Assembly (NCBI RefSeq): GCF_001941625.1
Contig: NZ_CP016076.1
Span: 1,674,001-1,738,000 of the forward strand
DNA length: 64,000 nt
Direction of reading: 5' to 3'
Origin: Actinoalloteichus fjordicus
Lineage (GTDB): Bacteria > Actinomycetota > Actinomycetes > Mycobacteriales > Pseudonocardiaceae
In this document: positions 8,645 through 38,311 of the stretch, one piece after another
How positions within the stretch are numbered: the first letter of the stretch is position 1
Layout of the letters: the number at the start of each line of letters is the position of its first letter
Made by a program: the position numbers and the translations under genes
The notes under the pieces: model-generated
What the model saw: only the letters and a program-made list of their open reading frames with translations
What the model was told of the DNA's origin: nothing
Database searches by the model: none

Positions 8645-10474
8645 GTGGCCGCTGAACGGGCCTACACCTTCTCTGACACCACTGCCGGCTACCTGGAGGA
8701 CTACCAGGACGGTCGCATCCGGTTACGCACCCTCGACGGCAGGCGCATCGCCCTGCAGCTGACCGAGAGCAGTTCCGGGCAGCTGCTGCGCAATCTCGGC
8801 GGGCCGCCGGTGGACGTCACCGGCAGCCTCGCCGATCACCTGCGGCCGGGCAGACTGCTCTTCGCCTACGGCCCGGTGTACCCCGAGGCCGACGGCCTGC
8901 GCTACCAGGTGAGCAGCCTGCTGTTCGTCGAGTCAGGGAACTCCGGCGACGACTTCGTCTTCGAGACCCCCGAGTGGTGGACCGACCAGCTGCGCGCACT
9001 GGCCGGGTTCTACCGCCGGGCACAGTTCGGCGCCGGGGAGGTCGACTTCGCCGACTACCGCACCGAGTTGCGGCTGGGCGGCGACAAGAACGGCCGACAC
9101 GTCCAGGAGACCGACACGATCTCGCGGCTGGTCTACGGGATGTCCTCGGCCTATCTGCTCACCGGCGAGGAGGACTTCCTCACCGTGGCCGACCGGGGTT
9201 CGGGGTATCTGCGGGAGCACATGCGCTTCGTCGACACCGAGCAGGACGTCACCTACTGGTACCACGGCATCGACGTCGACGGGATGCACGAGCGCAAGCT
9301 CTTCACCTCGGAGTTCGACGACGACTACCACGCGATCCCGGCGTACGAGCAGATCTATGCCCTCGTCGGCCTGGTGCAGACGTACCGGGTCACCGGCGAT
9401 CCCGCCATCCGACGCGACATCGAGGGCACGATCCGGCTCTTCCGTCGCTTCTTCGCCGACCCCAGACGGGGCGGGTACTTCTCGCACATCGACCCCGTGC
9501 GCCTGAGCCCGCACGAGGAGTCGCTCGGCCGCAACCGGTCCAGGAAGAACTGGAACTCGGTCGGTGATCACGCCCCCGCCTACCTGTTCAACCTGTACCT
9601 GGCGACCGGCGATCCGACCTACCGGGACATGCTCGAGCACACCTTCGACATGATCGTCTCGCACTTCCCGGACCGAGGTCCCGGCGGCAGCCCCTTCGTG
9701 CAGGAGCGATTCCACGAGGACTGGTCGCCCGACCGGGAGTGGGGCTGGCAGCAGGATCGCGCGGTGGTCGGGCACAACCTCAAGATCGCCTGGAACCTGA
9801 CCAGGATGAACGCCGCGGTGCCCAAGTTCGAGTACCAGCAGCTCGCCAGGCGCCTCGCAGAGACGATGCCCGCCATCGGCCGGGACCCGCAGCGCGGCGG
9901 CTGGTACGACGTCCTGGAACGGCAGCCGCGCGACGGCCGCCACGACTTCGTCTGGCACGACCGGAAGGCCTGGTGGCAGCAGGAACAGGCGATCCTGGCC
10001 TACCTGGTCCTCGCAGGCCACACCGGCGACGCCGATCACCTGCGGCACGCTCGCGAGGCCGAGGCGTTCTACAACGCCTTCTTCCTCGACCACGACGAGG
10101 GCGGCGTCTACTTCACGGTGCTCGCCGAGGGCCTGCCCTACCTGCTCGGCACCGAGCGGCTGAAGGGCAGCCACTCGATGAGCATGTACCACGCGGCCGA
10201 GCTGTGTTACCTGGCCACCGTCTACAGCAGACTCCTGGTGCGTCGCGAGCCGCTGGACCTGTGGTTCCGGCCGGGCCCCGACGCGGACTTCCCCGACGGA
10301 CTGCTGCGGGTGGCACCGGACGTGCTGCCGCCCGGCCGGACCGTGCTGGACCGGGTGCTGGTGGACGGCGAGCCGTTCACCGACTTCGACCCCGACGCGA
10401 TGGCCGTCCGGCTGCCGCGCAGCGCGAGTCCGCTCACCGTCCAGGCCCGGCTGCGCCCAGTGGAGGAACGGTGA
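8645..10474 (+). CDS. AGE-family (N-acylglucosamine 2-epimerase-like) protein
   Basis: 609 aa. Residues 1-105 form a beta-rich N-terminal domain (GYLEDYQDGRIRLRTLDGRR). The rest, from about 110 to 545, is a helical (alpha/alpha)6 barrel of the AGE/cellobiose-epimerase type, with repeated aromatic motifs (YWYHGIDVDG, WNSVGDHAPAYLF, GHNLKIAWNL, WWQQEQAILAYL) and a late conserved HSMSMYHAAELCY containing the candidate general acid/base His. Family enzymes interconvert free sugars at C2. GTG 8645 has GGAGG at 8634-8638. The stop overlaps the GTG start of the debranching enzyme (GTGA), so the two are co-translated. It is larger than classical AGE enzymes (about 400 aa); the sugar substrate is unknown. 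Confidence 0.75.
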   Translation: MAAERAYTFSDTTAGYLEDYQDGRIRLRTLDGRRIALQLTESSSGQLLRNLGGPPVDVTGSLADHLRPGRLLFAYGPVYPEADGLRYQVSSLLFVESGNSGDDFVFETPEWWTDQLRALAGFYRRAQFGAGEVDFADYRTELRLGGDKNGRHVQETDTISRLVYGMSSAYLLTGEEDFLTVADRGSGYLREHMRFVDTEQDVTYWYHGIDVDGMHERKLFTSEFDDDYHAIPAYEQIYALVGLVQTYRVTGDPAIRRDIEGTIRLFRRFFADPRRGGYFSHIDPVRLSPHEESLGRNRSRKNWNSVGDHAPAYLFNLYLATGDPTYRDMLEHTFDMIVSHFPDRGPGGSPFVQERFHEDWSPDREWGWQQDRAVVGHNLKIAWNLTRMNAAVPKFEYQQLARRLAETMPAIGRDPQRGGWYDVLERQPRDGRHDFVWHDRKAWWQQEQAILAYLVLAGHTGDADHLRHAREAEAFYNAFFLDHDEGGVYFTVLAEGLPYLLGTERLKGSHSMSMYHAAELCYLATVYSRLLVRREPLDLWFRPGPDADFPDGLLRVAPDVLPPGRTVLDRVLVDGEPFTDFDPDAMAVRLPRSASPLTVQARLRPVEER

Positions 10475-25640: not shown

Positions 25641-25646
25641 CGAGGC

Positions 25647-26861
25647 ATGACTGAGAACGGGGCCGCCCCGCGCCGGATCGTGGTCGTCGGCTCGTCCGTG
25701 GCGGGGCTGACCGTCGTCGACACGGTGCGCAGGCACGGGTTCGACGGCGCGGTGACGCTGATCGGCGACGAGGTCCACCTGCCCTACGACCGCCCGCCGC
25801 TGTCCAAGCAGATCCTGGCGGGCGACTGGGCGCCCGAGCGTGTCCGGCTGCGGCAGCGGGAGGACCTGGACGGGCTCGACCTCGATCTCCGGCTCGGCGT
25901 CACCGCGACCGGGCTCGACCCGGAGCGGCGTCGCGTCGCCCTGTCCGACGGCGGTGCGGCCGCCTACGACCGACTGGTCATCGCCACGGGCGTCCAGCCC
26001 AGGCGGCTGCCCGAGACGGACGGGGTCCGGGGTGTGCACACCCTGCGCACCCTCGACGACGCCGTCGCCCTCCGGGCGGCTCTGCAACCGGACACCCGCC
26101 TGGTCGTCGTCGGAGCAGGCTTCCTCGGCACCGAGATCGCGGCCGCCGCACGCAGGCTGGGGGCCCGCGTGTGGCTGTTGGAGCCCGCCCCGACGCCGTT
26201 GGCCGCCGTCGTCGGCACCGAGATCGGCGGCTTCGTCGCGGAACTGCACCGTGAGCAGGGCGTCGACCTGCGCACCGGTCCCGCCGCCGCCGTACGTTCC
26301 CTGCGCGTCGAGGACGGGGCCGTGACCGGTGTCCGCACGGCCGACGGGGAGGTGCTACCCGCCGACGTCGTCGCCGTGGCGATCGGCTCGCGGCCCGCCG
26401 TCGACTGGCTCTCCGCCAGCGGCCTGCGCTGTGCGGACGGCGTGCACTGCGACGCGACCTGCTCGGCGGCTCCCGGCGTCTTCGCGGCGGGTGACGTGGC
26501 CCGCTGGTTCAACCCGCGCTACGGCACCGAGATGCGGGTCGAGCACCGCACCAACGCCTCCGAACAGGCGCGCTACGTCGCGGGCGCCGTGGTCGGGACC
26601 GAGACGCAGCCGTTCTCCCCGGTGCCCTACTTCTGGTCCGACCAGTACGACGTCAAGATCCAGTCGCACGGTCTGCTGCACGGACACGACGAGGTGCGGA
26701 TCGTCGCGGGCTCGCTCCCCGACCGCCGGTTCATCGCGCTCTACCGCCGAGGCAGCCGCCTCTCGGGGGTGCTGGGCGTCGGGGACTTCCGCGCCCTGCG
26801 CCGTTGGCGGTCCACCCTGGACGCCGACATCGACTGGCACGACGCGCTCTCCGCAGGCTGA
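25647..26861 (+). CDS. NAD(P)/FAD-dependent oxidoreductase (ferredoxin-reductase type)
   Basis: 404 aa. The FAD motif GSSVAGLTVVDTVRRHG is at residues 15-31, PPLSKQ near 50 is typical of rubredoxin/ferredoxin reductases, the NAD motif VVVGAGFLGTEIAAAARRLGA lies at about 152-172, and GVFAAGDVARWFNP at about 275-288 is the second FAD-binding motif. A reductase C-terminal domain follows (WSDQYDVKIQSHG...). It would pass electrons from NAD(P)H to a ferredoxin serving a P450 or oxygenase, but no such partner is adjacent. ATG 25647 is preceded by a leaderless promoter. Confidence 0.92.
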   Translation: MTENGAAPRRIVVVGSSVAGLTVVDTVRRHGFDGAVTLIGDEVHLPYDRPPLSKQILAGDWAPERVRLRQREDLDGLDLDLRLGVTATGLDPERRRVALSDGGAAAYDRLVIATGVQPRRLPETDGVRGVHTLRTLDDAVALRAALQPDTRLVVVGAGFLGTEIAAAARRLGARVWLLEPAPTPLAAVVGTEIGGFVAELHREQGVDLRTGPAAAVRSLRVEDGAVTGVRTADGEVLPADVVAVAIGSRPAVDWLSASGLRCADGVHCDATCSAAPGVFAAGDVARWFNPRYGTEMRVEHRTNASEQARYVAGAVVGTETQPFSPVPYFWSDQYDVKIQSHGLLHGHDEVRIVAGSLPDRRFIALYRRGSRLSGVLGVGDFRALRRWRSTLDADIDWHDALSAG

Positions 26862-29022: not shown

Positions 29023-29883
29023 ATGTATTTTCAACTGTTAGGCGAGACGCAGTTCTGGCGGGGTGGACAGGAGGTCAGAATCGGACCGCAGCAGCGTCGG
29101 CTGCTGCTCGCCGTGCTGCTGCTCAACGCCAATGAGTCGGTGCATCGTGAGCGGATCTTCCAGCTCCTGTGGGGTGATCCGCTCCCGCGTTCGGCCACCG
29201 GATCCCTGCAGGCGCACGTGTCGCGACTGCGGGCGGCGCTCGGGCTGGACCGGGGGCACGCCGCCTCCTGCGGGGTCGCCCTGCGGACCGTGGGCGCCGG
29301 TTACCTGATCACCGTGCCTGGCGAGCACGTCGACGCCCACCGCTTCGAGGCGATGGTCAGCCGTGCGCAGTCCTCCGATGCCGCCGAGGCGTTGGCGTTG
29401 TACGGGCAGGCGCTCGACCTCTGGCGCGGCCCGCCGTTGTCGGACATCACCAACGAGCGGGCGCGGATGGAACTCTGCCTGCCGTTGGAGGAACGCAGGC
29501 TCGACGTGCTCACCGACCAGATCGACCTCAGGATCGAACTGGGTGCCTGGTCGGGCCTGATCGCGGAGCTGACGGCGTTGTCGTCGAGATTTCCCGGCAG
29601 GCCGCGGTTCGCCGCTCAGCTCATGATCCTGCTGTATCGCGGCGGGCGTACCGCAGATGCGTTGGAGGTATTCCGGCGGGTCCGTGAATTAATGGACCGG
29701 GAGTTCGGACTTGATCCGCCGGGTCGGCTCTCCTGGCTGGAGACTGCGATTCTGCGAAACGATCCAGTGCTGCAGGAAGACAGGTTTGTGATCGGCGGTC
29801 GATATTGGGGTACGGCAGTAGATCAGGACGGCTGTCGGCCGATGCAAGGTGCAGACAAGAACTTCGCAAGCCGTCGCACTTAG
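29023..29883 (+). CDS. SARP-family pathway regulator of the lasso cluster
   Basis: 286 aa. An OmpR-type winged helix (about 1-95: MYFQLLGETQFWRGGQEVRIGPQQRRLLLAVLLLNANESVHRERIFQLLWGD) is followed by a bacterial transcriptional activation domain (about 100-245, ALALYGQALDLWRGPPLSD). SARP proteins activate antibiotic clusters by binding direct repeats near the -35 site. ATG 29023 has a GGGGGA ribosome site. The gene ends 87 bp before the lasso precursor on the same strand, which makes it the likely activator of that cluster. Confidence 0.9.
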   Translation: MYFQLLGETQFWRGGQEVRIGPQQRRLLLAVLLLNANESVHRERIFQLLWGDPLPRSATGSLQAHVSRLRAALGLDRGHAASCGVALRTVGAGYLITVPGEHVDAHRFEAMVSRAQSSDAAEALALYGQALDLWRGPPLSDITNERARMELCLPLEERRLDVLTDQIDLRIELGAWSGLIAELTALSSRFPGRPRFAAQLMILLYRGGRTADALEVFRRVRELMDREFGLDPPGRLSWLETAILRNDPVLQEDRFVIGGRYWGTAVDQDGCRPMQGADKNFASRRT

Positions 29884-29970
29884 ATTGACCGCAGCCCGGA
29901 AGCGACGTGGTGCAGCCGAATGTCTTCTGGGTTGAAGGGTTACCGATCCGGTCTGAAGGAGGAGAACCTC

Positions 29971-30114
29971 ATGAACCGTGAACCGATGGTGACGGAGTCG
30001 CTCGGATCGTACGAGCCGCCTGCGTTGGAGGAGGTCGGCATCTTCGACGAGGTGACGCTGGGCCGTCCGTCGTGGGGATTCGAGGCCGACTGGTCTTGCG
30101 TCATGGTCTGCTGA
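29971..30114 (+). CDS. Lasso-peptide precursor, LP2006-like (class IV)
   Basis: 47 aa with a strong ribosome site AAGGAGGA 7 bases before ATG 29971. The leader (1-30) has the RRE-recognition pattern Y14-x-x-P17-x-L19 and Thr29 at the penultimate position. The predicted core, residues 31-47, is GRPSWGFEADWSCVMVC. Gly1 and Glu8 are the expected partners of an 8-residue macrolactam ring; Cys13 and Cys17 of the tail can form a disulfide. From memory LP2006 of Nocardiopsis alba, the founding class IV handcuff lasso peptide, is GRPNWGFENDWSCVRVC, so this core differs only at positions 4, 9 and 15. It lies between the SARP and cyclase genes. Confidence 0.93.
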   Translation: MNREPMVTESLGSYEPPALEEVGIFDEVTLGRPSWGFEADWSCVMVC

Positions 30115-30434
30115 TCAATCCGGTACGAGGCGAACACGGTCGAGTGCGGCCGTGCCGACGGGCGCAGGCGCGTCGGCGCGGCCCGTGCTGTGCCCGGGTC
30201 GAGACCGGCGGACCGGTTCGAGGCGACGCAGGCCGAGATCGGCAGGACGCTTCACGATGCGGCGGCCGTCGAGTCCGGCAGTCCGGACATCCGGCAGGAC
30301 GGCCCCGGCGGGCTACCGGAATCACATTGCCTGCACCCGCGAAACCTCTCACCTCGGCCGACGTCGGACGGCCGAGGTAGCAGACGCAGTCCCAGCAGCG
30401 GCGGTCCGACGACGACCGGAACGGGGAGAACGGC
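30115..30434. other. Gap between lasso precursor and cyclase
   Basis: 320 bp without a convincing gene. It contains the hairpin at 30351-30378. It may carry a partial terminator that lets precursor mRNA exceed that of the enzymes. Confidence 0.5.
30351..30378. terminator. Hairpin between lasso precursor and cyclase
   Basis: ACCTCGGCCG (30351-30360) pairs perfectly with CGGCCGAGGT (30369-30378) over an 8-base loop. Placed 57 bp before the cyclase start, it may attenuate transcription into the enzyme genes or stabilise the precursor transcript. Confidence 0.55.
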
Positions 30435-32261
30435 ATGGAGTTCCTGATCTTTCCGGACTGCCCGCAAGGGGCTGCCGTCGCCGAGACGGTCGCGGTGGGA
30501 CCGGGCCGCAGGCTGATTCCGCATTCGTCCGGCCGGCCCTGGATCGTCGGCGCGTGGGCGGACGATGAGGTCTGCTGGGCCTCGGCCGGGTCTCGCCGCG
30601 TCGCGATCCTCGGTGTCTCCTCGGCGACCACACCGGACCTCGCCGCGAGGCTGGACCGGCCCGGCGGCGTCGATCTCGACCGGCTCCGCCGCGCGTCGGC
30701 AGGCAGCTTCCACCTGGTCGCATCGATCGACGGACGGGTGCAGGCACAGGGCACACTGTCCTCGGCCCGGCAGATCTTCCACACCAGGGTCCGGGGGGTC
30801 GTCGTGGCGGCCGACCGACCGCAGAGACTGGCCGCGTTGACGGGCGCCGACGTCGTCGACGAGCTGCTAGCCCTCCAGCTCGTCTCGCCCTTCGCACCAT
30901 GGCCGTTGAACGACCGCTGTCTCTGGCGCGATGTCGAGGCACTGGCCGTGGGCTGCCGACTTGAACTGGACAATCGTGGTGTCGGGCGGACCGTGCGCTG
31001 GTGGACATCGCCACCACCGGACGTCTCGCTTGCCGAGGCCGCAGAACGGGTGGGCGCGGCACTCCACGACGCGGTGGCTGCACGCACCGGGACGAAGCGG
31101 TCGCTCAGCACCGATCTCTCCGGCGGGATGGACTCGACCAGTGTCTCCTTCCTCGCCGCCCGGCGGGTCGACCACTTCGTGACGACCCGGTGGGAGGCGG
31201 CGAACCCGGACGACGAGGACCAGTCCTGGGCGGCCCGGGCCGCCGCCTCGATTCCCCAGGCGAACCACGTCCTGCTCGGCAGGGCCGAGACCCCGATGAA
31301 CTTTGCCGGGCTCGCAAGGTTCGATGCCGACGCCGAGGCGCCGTTCGCCTGGATCCGCACCAGGAGCAGGCTGGAACACCAGGCTCGACGGCTGGCCGCG
31401 CTCGGCTCGACCATGCATCTGACCGGACACGGCGGCGACGAACTGTTCTTCCCCACCCCGCCGCACCTGCACGCGCTCCTGCGCAGCGAGCCGTTGACCT
31501 CGATGCGATACCTGCGGGGCTATCGGTCGATGTACCGCTGGCCCGTGCGGTCCATGGTGACCGGCATCGCCCGCAACCCCAGCTTCGCCCGATGGCTGGC
31601 GGCCGCCGGTGCCACCCTCACCAAGCCCATCCAACAGATGCAGCGTGACCCGGACTTCGGTTGGGCCAGCCGGTTCCTGACCCCGCCGTGGATTTCGCCC
31701 GCGGGCGTGGACGCCGTGCGCGGGCTGCTTCGGACGACCGCGGCAGAAGACCCGGAGCCGATCTGTCCGCTGCGCCCCCAGCACGCGACGATGCAGGACG
31801 TCCGGAAGTGCGGCGAGTCCATCCGCCGGGTCGACCGCCTCACCTCCCGGTCCGGGGTGAGCTGGCAGGCGCCGTTCGTCGACGATCACGTCGTCGAGGC
31901 CTCGCTCGCGGTTCGGCTCGCCGAGTCGGCCACCCCCTACCGCTACAAGCCGGTGCTCGCCGCCGCGATGCGGGGTGTGGTCCCCGCCGAACTGCTGGGC
32001 CGGGGCACGAAGTCCGAGTACAGCGCCGACGCCTACACCGGTCTCCGGGCGTGCCGGAACGACCTGATCGACCTCTGCGACGACATGATCCTCGCCCGGC
32101 GCGGGCTGGTCGACGTCGACGCTTTCCGCTCGGCCCTGCTCGGTATGCACACCCTGTCGGCCGGGCTCAGCCTCGTCGTCGCGACGCTGGCCTGCGAGAC
32201 GTGGCTGCGATCGTTGTCCGCCGGCGCGCAGGCCACGACTCTGACCGGAGGAACCCGATGA
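30435..32261 (+). CDS. Lasso-peptide macrolactam synthetase (asparagine-synthetase-like cyclase, C protein)
   Basis: 608 aa. Residues 1-200 are a degenerate glutamine-amidotransferase-like domain without the N-terminal Cys. The synthetase domain holds the ATP-pyrophosphatase loop SGGMDST at 229-235 and the GHGGDELFF motif at about 333-341. Lasso cyclases adenylate the Glu/Asp side chain of the core and let the N-terminal Gly attack it to close the ring around the tail. The stop overlaps the RRE gene start (ATGA). The length and gene order (precursor, C, B1, B2) match actinomycete lasso clusters. Confidence 0.93.
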   Translation: MEFLIFPDCPQGAAVAETVAVGPGRRLIPHSSGRPWIVGAWADDEVCWASAGSRRVAILGVSSATTPDLAARLDRPGGVDLDRLRRASAGSFHLVASIDGRVQAQGTLSSARQIFHTRVRGVVVAADRPQRLAALTGADVVDELLALQLVSPFAPWPLNDRCLWRDVEALAVGCRLELDNRGVGRTVRWWTSPPPDVSLAEAAERVGAALHDAVAARTGTKRSLSTDLSGGMDSTSVSFLAARRVDHFVTTRWEAANPDDEDQSWAARAAASIPQANHVLLGRAETPMNFAGLARFDADAEAPFAWIRTRSRLEHQARRLAALGSTMHLTGHGGDELFFPTPPHLHALLRSEPLTSMRYLRGYRSMYRWPVRSMVTGIARNPSFARWLAAAGATLTKPIQQMQRDPDFGWASRFLTPPWISPAGVDAVRGLLRTTAAEDPEPICPLRPQHATMQDVRKCGESIRRVDRLTSRSGVSWQAPFVDDHVVEASLAVRLAESATPYRYKPVLAAAMRGVVPAELLGRGTKSEYSADAYTGLRACRNDLIDLCDDMILARRGLVDVDAFRSALLGMHTLSAGLSLVVATLACETWLRSLSAGAQATTLTGGTR

Positions 32262-32515
32262 CCTTCACCCTCACCCCGGACGTCTCCATGACCGACGTCG
32301 GCAACGGCATGGTGCTGCTGGACGAACGGGGCGGCCGATACTTCCAGCTCAACGAGACCGGCGCGGTCGTGTTGCGCAGAATCCTGGCGGGCGTCGCCGT
32401 GGACGAGGTGGTCGCCGAACTGTGCGCGCAGCACCCCGGCGCTGCGGGCCGAGTCGCCGCCGACGTCAGCGGGATCATCGACTCGCTGTGTGCCGCGAAG
32501 GTGGTCGTCCGATGA
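32258..32515 (+). CDS. Lasso RRE protein (PqqD-like, B1)
   Basis: 85 aa, a single PqqD-type domain: VSMTDVGNGMVLLDERGGRYFQLNETGAVVLRRIL, followed by helical segments. It is the RiPP recognition element that binds the YxxPxL leader motif and delivers the precursor to the peptidase and cyclase. It overlaps the cyclase stop and the peptidase start by four bases each, so the three proteins are made together. Confidence 0.92.
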   Translation: MTFTLTPDVSMTDVGNGMVLLDERGGRYFQLNETGAVVLRRILAGVAVDEVVAELCAQHPGAAGRVAADVSGIIDSLCAAKVVVR

Positions 32516-32925
32516 CCATGCCCGTGATGCTCGAGCCCTCGGTGCGCGTCTCCTGGCGCCGCCGACTGGTCGCCAGGTTCGCCGTCGCGGCGGCGTGGCC
32601 CTTGATCCGGCTGTCCCCGCGTCGCCTCCGATCGGTGCTCCGCGTGCTCCGACGCGGTGCCCGCCCGTCCACCGCCGAGCAGGTCCTGGCGGCGCGAGAC
32701 GCCGTTGTCTCGGTCAGCGTGCGCTGCGCGGGGCAGGGCTGTCTGCAACGGTCCGTCGCGGTGGTGCTGCTGGCCCGCCTGGGCGGCCGGTGGGCCGACT
32801 GGTGCACGGGAGTGTGCATCGAGCCGTTCCGCGCCCATGCGTGGGTGGAGGTGGACGGCACGCCGATCGGCGAACGCAACGACATCAAGGCCTATCGCAC
32901 GGTGATGTCCGTTCCACTGCGGTGA
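32512..32925 (+). CDS. Lasso leader peptidase (transglutaminase-like, B2)
   Basis: 137 aa. The Cys-His-Asp protease signature of the lasso B2 family is visible: Cys77 in GQGCLQRS, His109 in HAWVEVDG with Asp115 following. The enzyme removes the 30-residue leader before ring closure. The N-terminal 60 residues are helical and basic (VSWRRRLVARFAVAAAWPLIRL). ATG 32512 overlaps the RRE gene stop (ATGA). Confidence 0.92.
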   Translation: MTMPVMLEPSVRVSWRRRLVARFAVAAAWPLIRLSPRRLRSVLRVLRRGARPSTAEQVLAARDAVVSVSVRCAGQGCLQRSVAVVLLARLGGRWADWCTGVCIEPFRAHAWVEVDGTPIGERNDIKAYRTVMSVPLR

Positions 32926-32979
32926 CCCGGCGGCGGGCCGCTCGCCGAGTGGACCCGAACGAAGGAGAGGACGCGCTCC

Positions 32980-33522
32980 ATGACGAACTATCTGCTGATC
33001 GCGGACCGGTGTCTGATCGCCGTTGTCTTCGGCGTCGCGTTTTTCAGCAAGGTGCGCGGTGTGGCGGCGTTCCAGCAGTTCGCGGGCACGATCCGGACGC
33101 TCACGAAGTTCCGGCAGCCCGTCACGACGAGCATCGCCGTGCTGGTCGTGGCGGGGGAGGCCACGGCGATGATCCTGGTGGCGCTGCCCGGCACCGTCCG
33201 GCTCGGCTTCGCCATGGCCGCCGGTCTGCTCGCCGTGTTCATCGCGGTGGTGTTCCGGGCGATCCAGGTCGGCGTCCTCGCGGAGTGCCGCTGCTTCGGG
33301 CGCGGCTCGGTGATGAGCGGCGCGATGATCCTCCGGAACGTGCTGCTCATGGCTGCGGCCGTCACCGGCATCGCGCTGGCTCCCGGCGGGCAGGCCGCCG
33401 ATCTCGGACTCCTCGTCATCGCCGTCGCGGCGGGAGTGGCGGTCGCGGTGTTCTTCATTCGCTATTACGACGCGCTGGTACGAGTGGTGCTCGGGCGGAT
33501 GGCGCCGCAGGTCGAGGCGTGA
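32980..33522 (+). CDS. MauE/DoxX-like membrane protein with CxC motif, candidate disulfide-forming protein
   Basis: 180 aa with four membrane segments at about 4-24, 49-70, 76-98 and 115-165 (the last region probably two). The AECRCFG motif (Cys103 and Cys105) is characteristic of the MauE family, which is needed for disulfide formation in methylamine dehydrogenase. Disulfide-containing lasso clusters such as that of MS-271/siamycin have, as I recall, added oxidoreductase genes. Since the predicted product needs a Cys13-Cys17 bond, this gene is a good candidate for forming it during or before export. GAAGGAGAGG precedes ATG 32980, and the stop overlaps the ATPase start (GTGA). Confidence 0.8.
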   Translation: MTNYLLIADRCLIAVVFGVAFFSKVRGVAAFQQFAGTIRTLTKFRQPVTTSIAVLVVAGEATAMILVALPGTVRLGFAMAAGLLAVFIAVVFRAIQVGVLAECRCFGRGSVMSGAMILRNVLLMAAAVTGIALAPGGQAADLGLLVIAVAAGVAVAVFFIRYYDALVRVVLGRMAPQVEA

Positions 33523-34472
33523 CCGTGCCCGAGACGATGATCGAGGCCGTCGACCTCGGAAAGCGGTTCGGCGCCGTGACCGCCCTGGCCGAGGTGAACC
33601 TCGCCGTGCCGCGCGGATCGGTGCTCGGCCTGCTGGGGCACAACGGCGCGGGGAAGACGACGCTGGTCAACATCTTCGGCACCCTGGCCCATCCCAGCTC
33701 CGGGTCCGCGCGGATCGCCGGGCTCGACGTGGTCGATCAGGCCGCCAAGGTCCGCAGCCTGATCGGACTGACCGGCCAGTTCGCCGCGCTGGACGAGAAG
33801 ATCTCCGGGCTGGACAACCTCGTCATGATCGGACGCCTGCTGGGCGCAGGCCGCCGAGAGGCCCGACGCCGAGCCGACGAGCTGGTGGAGTTGTTCGACC
33901 TCACGGCGGTCGGGACGAGGCTGGCCCGGACCTACTCGGGCGGGATGCGTCGTCGCCTCGACCTGGCACTCGGGCTGGTGGGACGTCCTGAGGTCATCGT
34001 GCTCGACGAGCCGACCAGCGGCATGGACCCGACGAGCAGGCTCGGTCTCTGGCAGACCGTGCAGGAGATGGCCCGCAACGGCAGCACGGTGCTGTTGACC
34101 ACCCAGCATCTGGACGAGGCCGACCGGCTCGCCGACGTGATCACCGTCCTCTCCGGCGGTCGGGTCGTGGCCACCGGCACGCCTGCGGAGCTGAAGGCTC
34201 GGGTGGGCAGGCGCGCCGTCACCGTACGGCTGCCCGCACCCGAGATGACCAGGGCCGTGGCCGCGCTGCGGGTCGCCGGCCTGCACCCGGTCCGAGGGGA
34301 GGAGCCCGGCACCGGACTCACGGTCGCGGTCGAGGCCGCCCGTGAGATCACTGCCGTGGTGCGTGCCCTCGACGCGGCGGGCATCGAGGCGGAGGAGCTG
34401 GGGCTGACCGAGCCGGGGCTGGACGAGGTCTACCTCTTCGTCATGAACAACGGCGTCGCGCATTCCAGTTGA
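33519..34472 (+). CDS. ABC exporter ATP-binding protein of the lasso cluster
   Basis: 317 aa. Walker A GHNGAGKTT is at 40-48, the signature YSGGMRRRLDLALGL near 138, Walker B VIVLDEPTSGMDP near 160, and TTQH the switch. It is of the DrrA type with a C-terminal accessory domain of about 90 residues. I chose the GTG at 33519, which overlaps the MauE-like stop; a longer frame upstream is an artefact. With the permease it should export the mature lasso peptide and give self-protection. Confidence 0.93.
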   Translation: MTVPETMIEAVDLGKRFGAVTALAEVNLAVPRGSVLGLLGHNGAGKTTLVNIFGTLAHPSSGSARIAGLDVVDQAAKVRSLIGLTGQFAALDEKISGLDNLVMIGRLLGAGRREARRRADELVELFDLTAVGTRLARTYSGGMRRRLDLALGLVGRPEVIVLDEPTSGMDPTSRLGLWQTVQEMARNGSTVLLTTQHLDEADRLADVITVLSGGRVVATGTPAELKARVGRRAVTVRLPAPEMTRAVAALRVAGLHPVRGEEPGTGLTVAVEAAREITAVVRALDAAGIEAEELGLTEPGLDEVYLFVMNNGVAHSS

Positions 34473-34494
34473 CTCGATCAGGGGAGGTCCGGCG

Positions 34495-35400
34495 ATGCCG
34501 GTCGACTCGACAGGCGAGGTGGACTCGCCGAGTGCAGGAAACCCGACCGGTCCGCCGCGCACGGTGAGCGTGCGCCCCTCGGACACCATCGGTCGGACGG
34601 GCGGCGCGGCGGGCCCTGCGCTGCGGGGGACGTCGATCCGTGGTCAGGTCCTCATCCTGGCAGGCCGGTCGCTGCGTGCGGTGCTGCGCGATCCACGACT
34701 GATCCTGGCCAATCTGCTGGCACCGCTGCTGATGCTGGTGGTGTTCAGCCAGATCTTCGGCAGTGTGGCGCAGACGCCGAGCTTCCCGGCCGACACGAAC
34801 TACGTCGACTTCCTGGTGCCCGCGATCCTGATCAACGCGACGCTGCAGGCGGCGATCAGCAGCGCCTTCGGCCTGGCCGACGACATGACCTCCGGCATCG
34901 TCTCGCGATTCCGTTCGCTGCCGGTCTGGCCGGGTTCCATCCTGCTGGCGAGGAGTCTCGCCGATCTGGTCCGCAGCGCGGTGCAGCTGTTGCTGATCCT
35001 GATCCTGGCCGCCGCACTGCTGGGATTTCGGCCGCCCGGCGGGATACCGGGCACGATCGCGGCCTGGGGACTCGCGCTGGCGGTGGGCACCGGACTCGGC
35101 TGGATCTTCATCGCCGTCGCCTGCCGGGTGCGCGACGTCGAACTCATGCAGGGCACGGCCACCCTGCTCACCTTCCCCCTGATGTTCTGCTCGAACGCCT
35201 TCATCCCGTCCGAGGGTCTGCCGGGCTGGCTGCGCACCGCCGCCGAGATCAATCCGATGTCCTACGGCATCGACGCGGCCCGTGCCCTGGTCCTCGACCG
35301 TCCGGTCGGCAGCGGTGCGATCACGGCGATCGTCATCAGCGTCGTGGTCGGCGTCCTGGCGGGCGTGATCGCCGTTCGGGGCTTCCGGCGTCCCCTGTGA
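34495..35400 (+). CDS. ABC exporter permease of the lasso cluster (DrrB-like)
   Basis: 301 aa. The first 55 residues are soluble. Six membrane segments follow, among them about 75-95 (LILANLLAPLLMLVVFSQIF), 105-130, 155-185 (VQLLLILILAAALLGF), 190-215, 221-240 and 275-295. The pattern matches ABC-2 permeases of the daunorubicin-resistance type. GGGGAGG precedes ATG 34495, 22 bp after the ATPase stop. It is the last gene of the cluster. Confidence 0.9.
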   Translation: MPVDSTGEVDSPSAGNPTGPPRTVSVRPSDTIGRTGGAAGPALRGTSIRGQVLILAGRSLRAVLRDPRLILANLLAPLLMLVVFSQIFGSVAQTPSFPADTNYVDFLVPAILINATLQAAISSAFGLADDMTSGIVSRFRSLPVWPGSILLARSLADLVRSAVQLLLILILAAALLGFRPPGGIPGTIAAWGLALAVGTGLGWIFIAVACRVRDVELMQGTATLLTFPLMFCSNAFIPSEGLPGWLRTAAEINPMSYGIDAARALVLDRPVGSGAITAIVISVVVGVLAGVIAVRGFRRPL

Positions 35401-35925: not shown

Positions 35926-36945
35926 GACCGTGACGGCGGCCCGGTCGAGCGCAAAGGCCTCGGCCAGCAGGCCGTAGGACCGGAGGCGATCTTCGTGCCC
36001 CGCGACCTGGGTGGTGACCATCAGTTCGTCGGCGCCCGACGTGGCGATCAGCTGGTCGAGCCCGGCCCGAACCGTCTCCGGCGAGCCGACGAAGCGGGCC
36101 GCGCTCTGCTGCGCGACCAGGGCCAGGTCATCTGCCGTGTAAGGGTAGTCGGCGGCCTCCTGCGGGGAGGGCAGCGGCCGGTCGCGGTCGCCGTTGCGCA
36201 GGCGCACGTAGAGCAGCGAGGCAGGCGCGGCAAGGCGGCGGGCCGCCTCGTCCGTCTCGGCACACACCGCTCCCACCGAGATCACGGTGCGCGGCGCCGG
36301 GAGCAGGCCGGTCGACCGGAACGCCGACCGGTAGACCTCCAACGACGGTCGGGCGTGCTGCGGATTGATGTGGTGGGCGTAGGCGAACGGGAGCCCGAGC
36401 ATGCCCGCCAGCGCAGCGCTGCGCCTGCTGACGCCAAGCAGCCACGGTTGCGGCCTGCTGTCGCGGGCGGGGACGGCCGAGACCACCCGCTCGCCGTCGC
36501 CGCCTCGTCGATCGCCGAAGTTCCGGAGCAGCTCGCCGAGCTGTGCGGGGAAGTCCTCGACCTCGGGTCGGCGCAGCGCCGCCCCCGTTGCAGGGTCTGC
36601 GGCGGGGGCTCGACCGATGCCAAGGTCGATCCGACCGGGATGCAGCGCCTCCAGCGTTCCGAACTGCTCCGCGACCACCAACGGCGGGTGATTGGGCAGC
36701 ATCACGCCGCCGGAGCCGACTCGGAGCGTGGTCGTGACTCCCGCCACGGCGGCGATCAGCACCGCAGGCGAGCAGCTGGCGACGCTCGCGACGTTGTGGT
36801 GCTCGGCGAACCAATACCGGTGATAGCCGAGTGCCTCGACCTCGCGGGCCAGCCGGACGCTGTCGCGCAGCGCCTCGGCGGGGGAGGAATCCGCGCCGAC
36901 CGGGGCGAGATCGAGTACGGAGAGGGGGACTGGCGCCGATGTCAT
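35923..36945 (-). CDS. LLM-class flavin-dependent monooxygenase (MsnO8-like)
   Basis: 340 aa. The luciferase-like fold is shown by [23 protein letters not shown] at the start, the [21 protein letters not shown] block (about 43-62), the [40 protein letters not shown]-like segment (about 75-112), and a late [20 protein letters not shown]. These proteins use reduced FMN to oxygenate or reduce small molecules. AAGGGAAG precedes the ATG. The TGA stop lies in the target duplication of the MITE, so the original 3' end may have been shifted slightly. It is convergent to the lasso operon and not clearly part of it. Confidence 0.88.
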   Translation of the reverse strand: [340 protein letters not shown]

Positions 36946-37558
36946 GACTTCCCTTTCACCCGGATGATCGAACGCGGAGACCGGAGAGTTCCCGGGACGC
37001 TATGACATCTCGCCTGCCTGCTTCTTGCTCCCGGCTTGCCTCCCCCGCGTGCCGTCGTGTTCCGTTCGGTCCCGATCCGCCGTCGTCCGGGGAGAACCTC
37101 CTGCCGCACCGGCAGCCGCCGTGAGGACACGACGCCGCCGATCCTCAGACGCGCGATGGCGGCAGAGCCTCGTCGACAGGCAAGCCCGAGACAAGGGCCG
37201 CGCAACCCGCACCGCTTATCGTCGAGTGACGTATATCGAAGTCTGCCGACCGGACACCTGACCAGGAAGGCGCCCGTCATGATCGCGGAGTTCCCGAAGA
37301 CGGCGGCGAAGACGACAGTCGAGCGGCCGACCGGATTCCGGCAGGCGGTCCTGCGGGAGCGACTCCGCAGCCGAAACCGGTCTCGACCGATCGGATGCCC
37401 GCTGATCGCGCGGAAGGCGAGCGACCCTCGGCGACTCGTGACCTCCGGAGCACGTCGGGAGTGGTGGTCTCCGCGCCTCGCCCGCCCTGACGATCTCGCG
37501 CGCTCGCCCGGCCCGCTGTCCTCGATGTCGCCCGCCGATGGGTGAGCGCCGAAGCGGG
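36946..37558. other. Intergenic region between divergent genes
   Basis: 613 bp. AT-richer promoter-like DNA lies at about 37205-37245 (CGTATATCGAAG). An open frame at 37279-37545 is listed separately. Nothing else recognised. Confidence 0.4.
37279..37545 (+). CDS. Possible small Arg-rich protein
   Basis: 88 aa, starting MIAEFPKTAAKTTVERPTGF. The first 30 codons show the expected third-position GC bias and GGAAGG lies about 10 bases upstream, but the later part is Arg/Pro-rich like noncoding frames. No family is recognised. It overlaps the most upstream start of the next gene. It may be spurious. Confidence 0.25.
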   Translation: MIAEFPKTAAKTTVERPTGFRQAVLRERLRSRNRSRPIGCPLIARKASDPRRLVTSGARREWWSPRLARPDDLARSPGPLSSMSPADG

Positions 37559-38311
37559 ATGCGATTCCGTGTTCTCGGCCCGTTCACCGTGTCCACCGCC
37601 GACGGCAGGGCGGTGGTCCTCGGCGGCGAGAAGCCGCGCACCATGCTGGCGGCGCTGCTCCTGGCCGACGGCCGGATCATGACCGACGACCTGCTGATCG
37701 AGGTGCTGTGGGGCGGGCGTCCGCCTGCGACGGTGCGGGCCCAGCTGCACACCTACGCCTCCCGCCTCCGCGCGGCCTTGGCACCCGAGGCGAGGCTGGT
37801 CCGATGCGGCGCAGGCTACCTGCTGGACATCGGCGACCGGCGCTCCGACGCCGAGGACTTCGCTCGGCTGAGTCGCCTCGGGCAAAGCGAACTGGCCGAG
37901 GGGCGACCCTCCTCGGCGGTGGGCTGGCTGCATGCGGCATTGGGCCTCTGGAGAGGTCCGGCGTTGGCCGACGTCACCGAGGCGCTGCGGGATCTCGAGA
38001 CGCCCAGGCTGGAGGAGATGCGGCTGGCCGCGCTGGAGGATCGGATCGAGGCACGCCTGGCCCTCGGTGAGCACTCGCATGTCGTGCCGGAGCTGGTCGA
38101 GCTGGTCGCCCGCTGTCCGCTGCGGGAGCGCCTGCGTGCCCAGCTCATGACCGCCTTGCAGCGCAGCAACCGTCGCGCAGACGCGCTGGGCGTGTACGGA
38201 CAGGGGCGGCTGATCCTGGATCGGGAACTCGGCATCGGTCCCGGCACGGTACTGCGCGACGCCTACCGTCGGGTGGTCCGAGTCGACGGTGCCTCGGCCG
38301 CCGACCACTAG
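37559..38311 (+). CDS. Second SARP/BTAD-type regulator
   Basis: 250 aa. A winged helix (about 1-90, MRFRVLGPFTVSTADGRAVVLGGEKPRTMLAALLLADGRIMTDDLLIEVLWG) precedes a BTAD domain (about 95-240). It is a short SARP without an NB-ARC part. ATG 37559 gives the family start MRFRVLGPF; an ATG at 37538 is possible. It is 2.2 kb beyond the lasso cluster and could act on it or on a lost neighbour pathway. It is similar in plan but not close in sequence to the SARP at 29023. Confidence 0.85.
   Translation: MRFRVLGPFTVSTADGRAVVLGGEKPRTMLAALLLADGRIMTDDLLIEVLWGGRPPATVRAQLHTYASRLRAALAPEARLVRCGAGYLLDIGDRRSDAEDFARLSRLGQSELAEGRPSSAVGWLHAALGLWRGPALADVTEALRDLETPRLEEMRLAALEDRIEARLALGEHSHVVPELVELVARCPLRERLRAQLMTALQRSNRRADALGVYGQGRLILDRELGIGPGTVLRDAYRRVVRVDGASAADH

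Follow-up and report, generated by a model that had tools for sequence, protein, structure and literature searches.

The window analysed here is a stretch of 64,000 nucleotides from Actinoalloteichus fjordicus (positions 1,674,001 to 1,738,000 of contig NZ_CP016076.1), and the element in question is a lasso peptide gene cluster, originally placed at positions 29,023 to 35,400 of the window, in which a precursor gene (A) with a recognizable lasso leader, a gene for a macrolactam synthetase (C) and one for a transglutaminase-like B peptidase (B2) stand side by side, together with a SARP-family regulator, a MauE-family membrane protein and an ABC transporter pair (Table 1). The gene order A-C-B1-B2-MauE-ABC-permease is also found in relatives of the cluster. 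Consistent with the sequence-only reading of this DNA, which had described a complete lasso cluster, the precursor, C, B2, MauE-like and ABC genes all have open reading frames and, like the SARP gene, are matched by Pfam or NCBIfam models, with C scoring 267 bits against the lasso-specific model NF033561, under its cut-off of 300. The same reading had the genes overlapping throughout, which holds for C/B1, B1/B2 and MauE/ABC, while gaps separate the genes elsewhere, all of them smaller than the one between A and C. Within the A-C gap, the predicted RNA fold is not unusual and none of three terminator-like hits is found. The spacer between SARP and precursor is conserved in part among three genomes of the genus. 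B1, also counted among the cluster genes, has the right place and size and shows short homology in two of the eight relatives' loci (L007 and L010); it has no Pfam match even at an E-value of 10, and its naming is therefore based on position and this short homology. At the right edge the originally drawn boundary does not hold, as a conserved luciferase-like flavin oxidoreductase (LLM) gene follows on the opposite strand.

The C terminus of the precursor reads TL-GRPSWGFEADWSCVMVC, and its translation bears out the core residues that had been claimed, namely Gly1, Glu8, Cys13 and Cys17, with a predicted ring from Gly1 to Glu8; both cysteines lie in the tail and none in the ring, as is expected from sequence of a class IV lasso peptide. 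For the form carrying both the ring and the disulfide the computed monoisotopic mass is 1908.775 ([M+H]+ 1909.782; 2+ 955.395), in agreement with the earlier values of about 1908.77 and 1909.78. The comparison with LP2006 from Nocardiopsis alba (class IV, PDB 5JPL) is likewise confirmed by the LP2006 sequence GRPNWGFENDWSCVRVC quoted in PMC12427821: the two cores share 14 of 17 residues, including Gly1, Glu8, Cys13 and Cys17, and differ only at positions 4 (Ser for Asn), 9 (Ala for Asn) and 15 (Met for Arg), so that the sequence supports a natural LP2006-like class IV candidate.

The peptide is, however, not new. An identical core, with the leader MTESLGSYEPPALEEVGIFDEVTL, was published in 2018 by Mevaere et al. 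(PMC5974421) as the A127-LP precursor of A. fjordicus ADI127-17, which is given in PMC5676828 as DSM 46855T and is the same strain; the leader is identical from TESLG on, and a SARP gene lies upstream of A in the published cluster as well. The sole difference is in the choice of start codon, which that paper places at a GTG (29989), whereas a GGAGG just upstream of the ATG at 29971, which is aligned with an ATG in two sister genomes of the genus, favours the latter. Since the identical core is in print from the same strain, the claim of a new peptide fails, and novelty of the core is ruled out; the outcome that the sequence-only reading had itself named as refuting, a core already described, has thus come about, with PMC5974421 the one match among open-licence PMC full texts when searched by the A127-LP name or the core letters. 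Taken together, the identical core and leader, the identity to LP2006, the intact core enzymes and the gene order kept in relatives indicate, with a probability of roughly 93%, that the locus is the already described A127-LP cluster of A. fjordicus ADI127-17 and belongs to the LP2006 (class IV) family.

According to PMC5974421, which files A127-LP as type III, its term for one-disulfide peptides including LP2006, the SARP boosts the precursor promoter about 5-fold in a gusA assay in Streptomyces venezuelae. Transfer of the cluster failed in S. albus and succeeded in S. coelicolor and S. lividans, where transcription was confirmed by reverse-transcription PCR and the peptide was undetected. That result counts against the reading just given in so far as the ring, the thread and the disulfide, and with them the topology of A127-LP, thus stay predicted.

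Table 1. Features of the A127-LP locus (window coordinates)
Feature	Coordinates	Strand	Basis
SARP-family activator, cluster regulator	29023..29883	+	Pfam BTAD 112 bits, Trans_reg_C
Spacer between SARP and A, roughly matching the published A127-LPp promoter	29884..29970	+	position; gusA promoter test in PMC5974421
Precursor A, leader and core GRPSWGFEADWSCVMVC	29971..30114	+	NCBIfam lasso_leader_L3 (NF033521), above cut-off
A-to-C spacer, 320 bases	30115..30434	+	RNA fold z -1.18
C, macrolactam synthetase (Asn-synthase-like)	30435..32261	+	PF00733 Asn_synthase 124 bits
B1, presumed leader-binding RRE protein	32260..32514	+	position, size, short homology in L007 and L010
B2, leader peptidase	32512..32925	+	NF033537 (lasso_biosyn_B2) 107 bits, above cut-off; PF13471 Transglut_core3
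MauE-family membrane protein, invariant E-C-x-C-F-G	32980..33522	+	PF07291 65 bits
DrrA-like ABC ATPase (export/immunity)	33519..34472	+	PF00005 ABC_tran; TIGR01188 299 bits, under cut-off
DrrB-like ABC permease	34495..35400	+	PF01061 ABC2_membrane 111 bits
MsnO8-family luciferase-like flavin oxidoreductase (LLM)	35926..36945	-	TIGR03558 396 bits, above cut-off

Homologous precursors are present in all three Actinoalloteichus genomes (own included) and in other genera, so the observation is more than a chance resemblance. A phylum-wide pattern search returned the window as its only match (1 of 396 genomes). A contig scan gave eight loci, four of which, from Actinomadura (3) and Kribbella (1), are of LP2006 type. 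In the family of one of these Actinomadura, a precursor profile found at least 28 of 341 genomes at E <= 1e-6, a lower bound because only part of the candidates was scored; 24 of the 28 encode two tail cysteines and 4 no cysteine. A core of the form GRPxWGFExDWxCVxxC occurs in 10 of those genomes, and the exact LP2006 core in one (G491, locus L053). The "very rare topology" that had been proposed is therefore not borne out at the gene level, where 24 of 341 genomes of a single family carry two-tail-cysteine precursors on the same ring plan. Among the 14 loci with this core type (the window, L007-L010 and L045-L053), Met15 is found in 13, and Arg15 in the LP2006 core only.

The family also holds further variants. 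One locus of Actinomadura kijaniata (L010) carries three tandem LP2006-type precursors, at 8697, 9001 and 9318, with different cores. In L063, L064 and L065 the predicted LP2006-type cores KQGTWGYDSRDQCLIAC, RQGTWGWDDYDQCWILC and RQGTWGYDDYDQCWIDC begin with Lys or Arg in place of Gly, which would be unusual as the first ring residue if the cleavage site is right.

The MauE gene was followed through an LP2006-type set of 29 loci from 28 genomes (the window, L007-L010, L045-L061, L063-L068 and L071), with only clear matches counted, as iterated profiles also caught frame-shadow open reading frames. In 28 of these loci, B2 is followed by a PF07291-type MauE gene and then by the ABC genes, the lone exception among the 29 being L010, where the contig end falls inside B2. 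The family has a curated cut-off of 27 bits, well below the 65 bits of the window gene, and the MauE gene of the exact-LP2006-core locus L053 reaches 66 bits; L053 shares its MauE gene and ABC pair with the A127-LP cluster, which in contrast has a SARP and an LLM gene, neither of which was found within 9 kb in L053. No MauE was found in the cysteine-free siblings L062, L069, L070 and L072, which the same leader profile picked up, nor in L013 and L014, relatives of the class III peptide 9401-LP1 (by Pfam and our own profile, and for L014 by our own profile alone). 9401-LP1 resembles A127-LP in having one disulfide and related enzymes and differs in that its cysteines connect ring and tail. At first sight, these absences suggest that MauE and the tail cysteines are functionally linked.

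All 26 aligned MauE copies carry the motif E-C-x-C-F-G without variation. An AlphaFold2 model of the protein is helical, with a predicted local distance difference test (pLDDT) score of 83 and a poorly determined CxC loop; by the charge distribution (positive-inside rule), this loop would face the cytoplasm. A fold search of the model against the PDB gave no significant match (best E 0.56), and a sequence search against the PDB gave none at all. In PMC7794033, a role of MauE in disulfide formation is mentioned as speculation.

In the model that emerges, transcription from the precursor promoter is activated by the SARP, as shown by others (PMC5974421). By homology, B1 and B2 would remove the leader and C would join Gly1 to Glu8, so that the ring encloses the threaded tail. 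By analogy with LP2006, Cys13 and Cys17 are expected to be linked by a single disulfide, which would act as a plug for the tail, and the ABC pair may export the product or protect the producer. The part most likely played by MauE, held with moderate to low confidence, would be to help oxidise the tail thiols or to couple that oxidation to export. In a stronger form of this proposal, the LP2006-type clade would have in MauE a redox membrane protein of its own, dedicated to making or safeguarding the tail disulfide, and the CxC motif would lie on the cytoplasmic side, where the peptide is threaded; this form is put forward tentatively and seems on balance unlikely. It finds a pointer in L109 (G748), a locus with a predicted class I-like four-cysteine core (CTPWGDCRDFLGCGRAPICVG), in which a gene with a strong MauE match (107 bits) lies some 2 kb away from B2.

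It has to be noted that several lines of evidence weigh against a disulfide role of MauE. Mapped onto a tree of C proteins with 101 rows, MauE requires one change within the LP2006-type set, two with L109 and three when L078 is included too, while the two-tail-cysteine character requires two changes, the core of L115 being cysteine-free. The MauE-cysteine pattern thus mostly reflects descent, and the co-occurrence, going back to one gain on this tree, is not independent evidence; in an independent-pairs test, one of four pairs agreed and three did not differ, which are too few contrasts for significance. A survey with the B2 model across 200 Pseudonocardiaceae genomes, in which the three Actinoalloteichus LP2006-type loci were set aside from the best 83 listed loci, left 80, of which 69 had a readable precursor and 11 without one were dropped; some loci lie near contig ends, L138, which has two precursors, entered the count with one of them, and B2-MauE distances were compared by eye. 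MauE was scored here by Pfam, a profile built from lasso MauE proteins only having underscored L109 (25 bits vs 107 by Pfam). Within 10 kb of B2, MauE was found in 1 of 7 loci with at least two core cysteines, compared with 1 of 62 lacking them (p = 0.19 by Fisher test), so that the idea of MauE as a general mark of disulfide-bearing lassos is rejected, and the class IV-like survey loci L104, L128, L139 and L142 have none. Given the descent seen on the tree and a survey in which MauE and cysteines are not significantly associated, MauE is a fixed part of one clade and not a general marker. Finally, class I peptides reportedly still form without sviF, mslE or mslF, with the msl mutations lowering the yield (PMC9266682).

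Three of the loci just named, L128, L139 and L142, constitute a separate two-tail-cysteine group of the IKTAGNYIDSPYGVWCVGNCG type, which is class IV-like and lies on another branch.

An alternative model sees in MauE a partner for export or self-immunity, and not a disulfide enzyme, with the disulfide forming spontaneously in air. This is given a chance only slightly below even. It accords with the position of MauE, which directly precedes the ABC pair in 28 loci, with the four class IV-like survey loci that do without it, and with the sviF mutant, which still made sviceucin but in the mycelium only (PMC9266682). That review also argues that lasso disulfides may form spontaneously, pointing out that the clusters of LP2006, pandonodin and the felipeptins have no extra genes in common and that the disulfide may need no enzyme. 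The invariance of the CxC motif is less readily explained by such a function, and the role speculated upon in PMC7794033 also speaks for the redox proposal instead.

A further alternative assigns the disulfide, or some other modification, to the LLM oxidoreductase and not to MauE, as proposed for FilE of the felipeptins. The LLM gene is found in 13 of the 29 LP2006-type loci (the window and 12 others) at differing positions: SARP and A flank it in Actinomadura, and in Actinoalloteichus it comes after the permease. Being common to these loci at changing places, it is best understood as a cluster member that has moved. Its retention despite the shifting place is in line with this alternative, as is L104, in which an LLM gene directly follows B2 and which, unlike the A127-LP cluster, has no MauE nearby. 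The two cores of L104 resemble felipeptins A1 and A2, class IV peptides (PMC12427821) that share with L104 and A127-LP the Gly1, an acid at position 8 and tail cysteines Cys13 and Cys17. Nonetheless, LP2006 has its disulfide although no LLM gene lies within 9 kb of the exact LP2006 core, and PMC9266682 states that LP2006 lacks FilE, where the equation of FilE with LLM is presumptive; a disulfide-forming LLM is accordingly judged improbable. The oxidoreductase mentioned for the A127-LP cluster in PMC5974421 could be either MauE or LLM. A silent or defective cluster from which no peptide is produced, as the lack of product in S. coelicolor and S. lividans might suggest, is very improbable, given that its genes are open, that precursor and gene order are kept across genera and that the authors of PMC5974421 suspect host toxicity.

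In the surroundings of the cluster, a second SARP regulator gene lies beside the LLM gene (37538-38311, +; BTAD 142 bits) and is 84% identical in one genus genome (G001, L045), while none was seen in the 2 kb past LLM in another (G002, L046). Upstream, positions 25644-26861 (+) encode a ferredoxin-reductase-type FAD enzyme (Pyr_redox_2 and Reductase_C). Elsewhere in the same genome, a second lasso B2-type gene (G000:C1:4162836-4163189, L150; 90 bits) was found, with no precursor recognised. In the family of A. fjordicus, a highly basic lasso-like core of the HSRPAKKDKAGRRRPRHILL type recurs in L086, L106, L114, L119, L121, L122 and L125.

The peptide, being in print, should not be announced as new. 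What is added is the observation that LP2006-type clusters keep a MauE-family gene beside the peptide-making genes, in a family that is larger than a "very rare topology" implies and whose cores vary naturally at positions 4, 9, 16 and beyond. The presence of MauE inside the LP2006-type clade is consistent with the three-way comparison in PMC9266682, yet it is a candidate which that comparison could not reveal. If the redox proposal is true, class IV clusters would for the first time have, in MauE, a conserved candidate for the disulfide step, the mechanism of which is called unknown in a 2026 review. Without being proof of a role, the MauE and LLM observations make the question of how lasso peptides acquire their disulfides a testable one.

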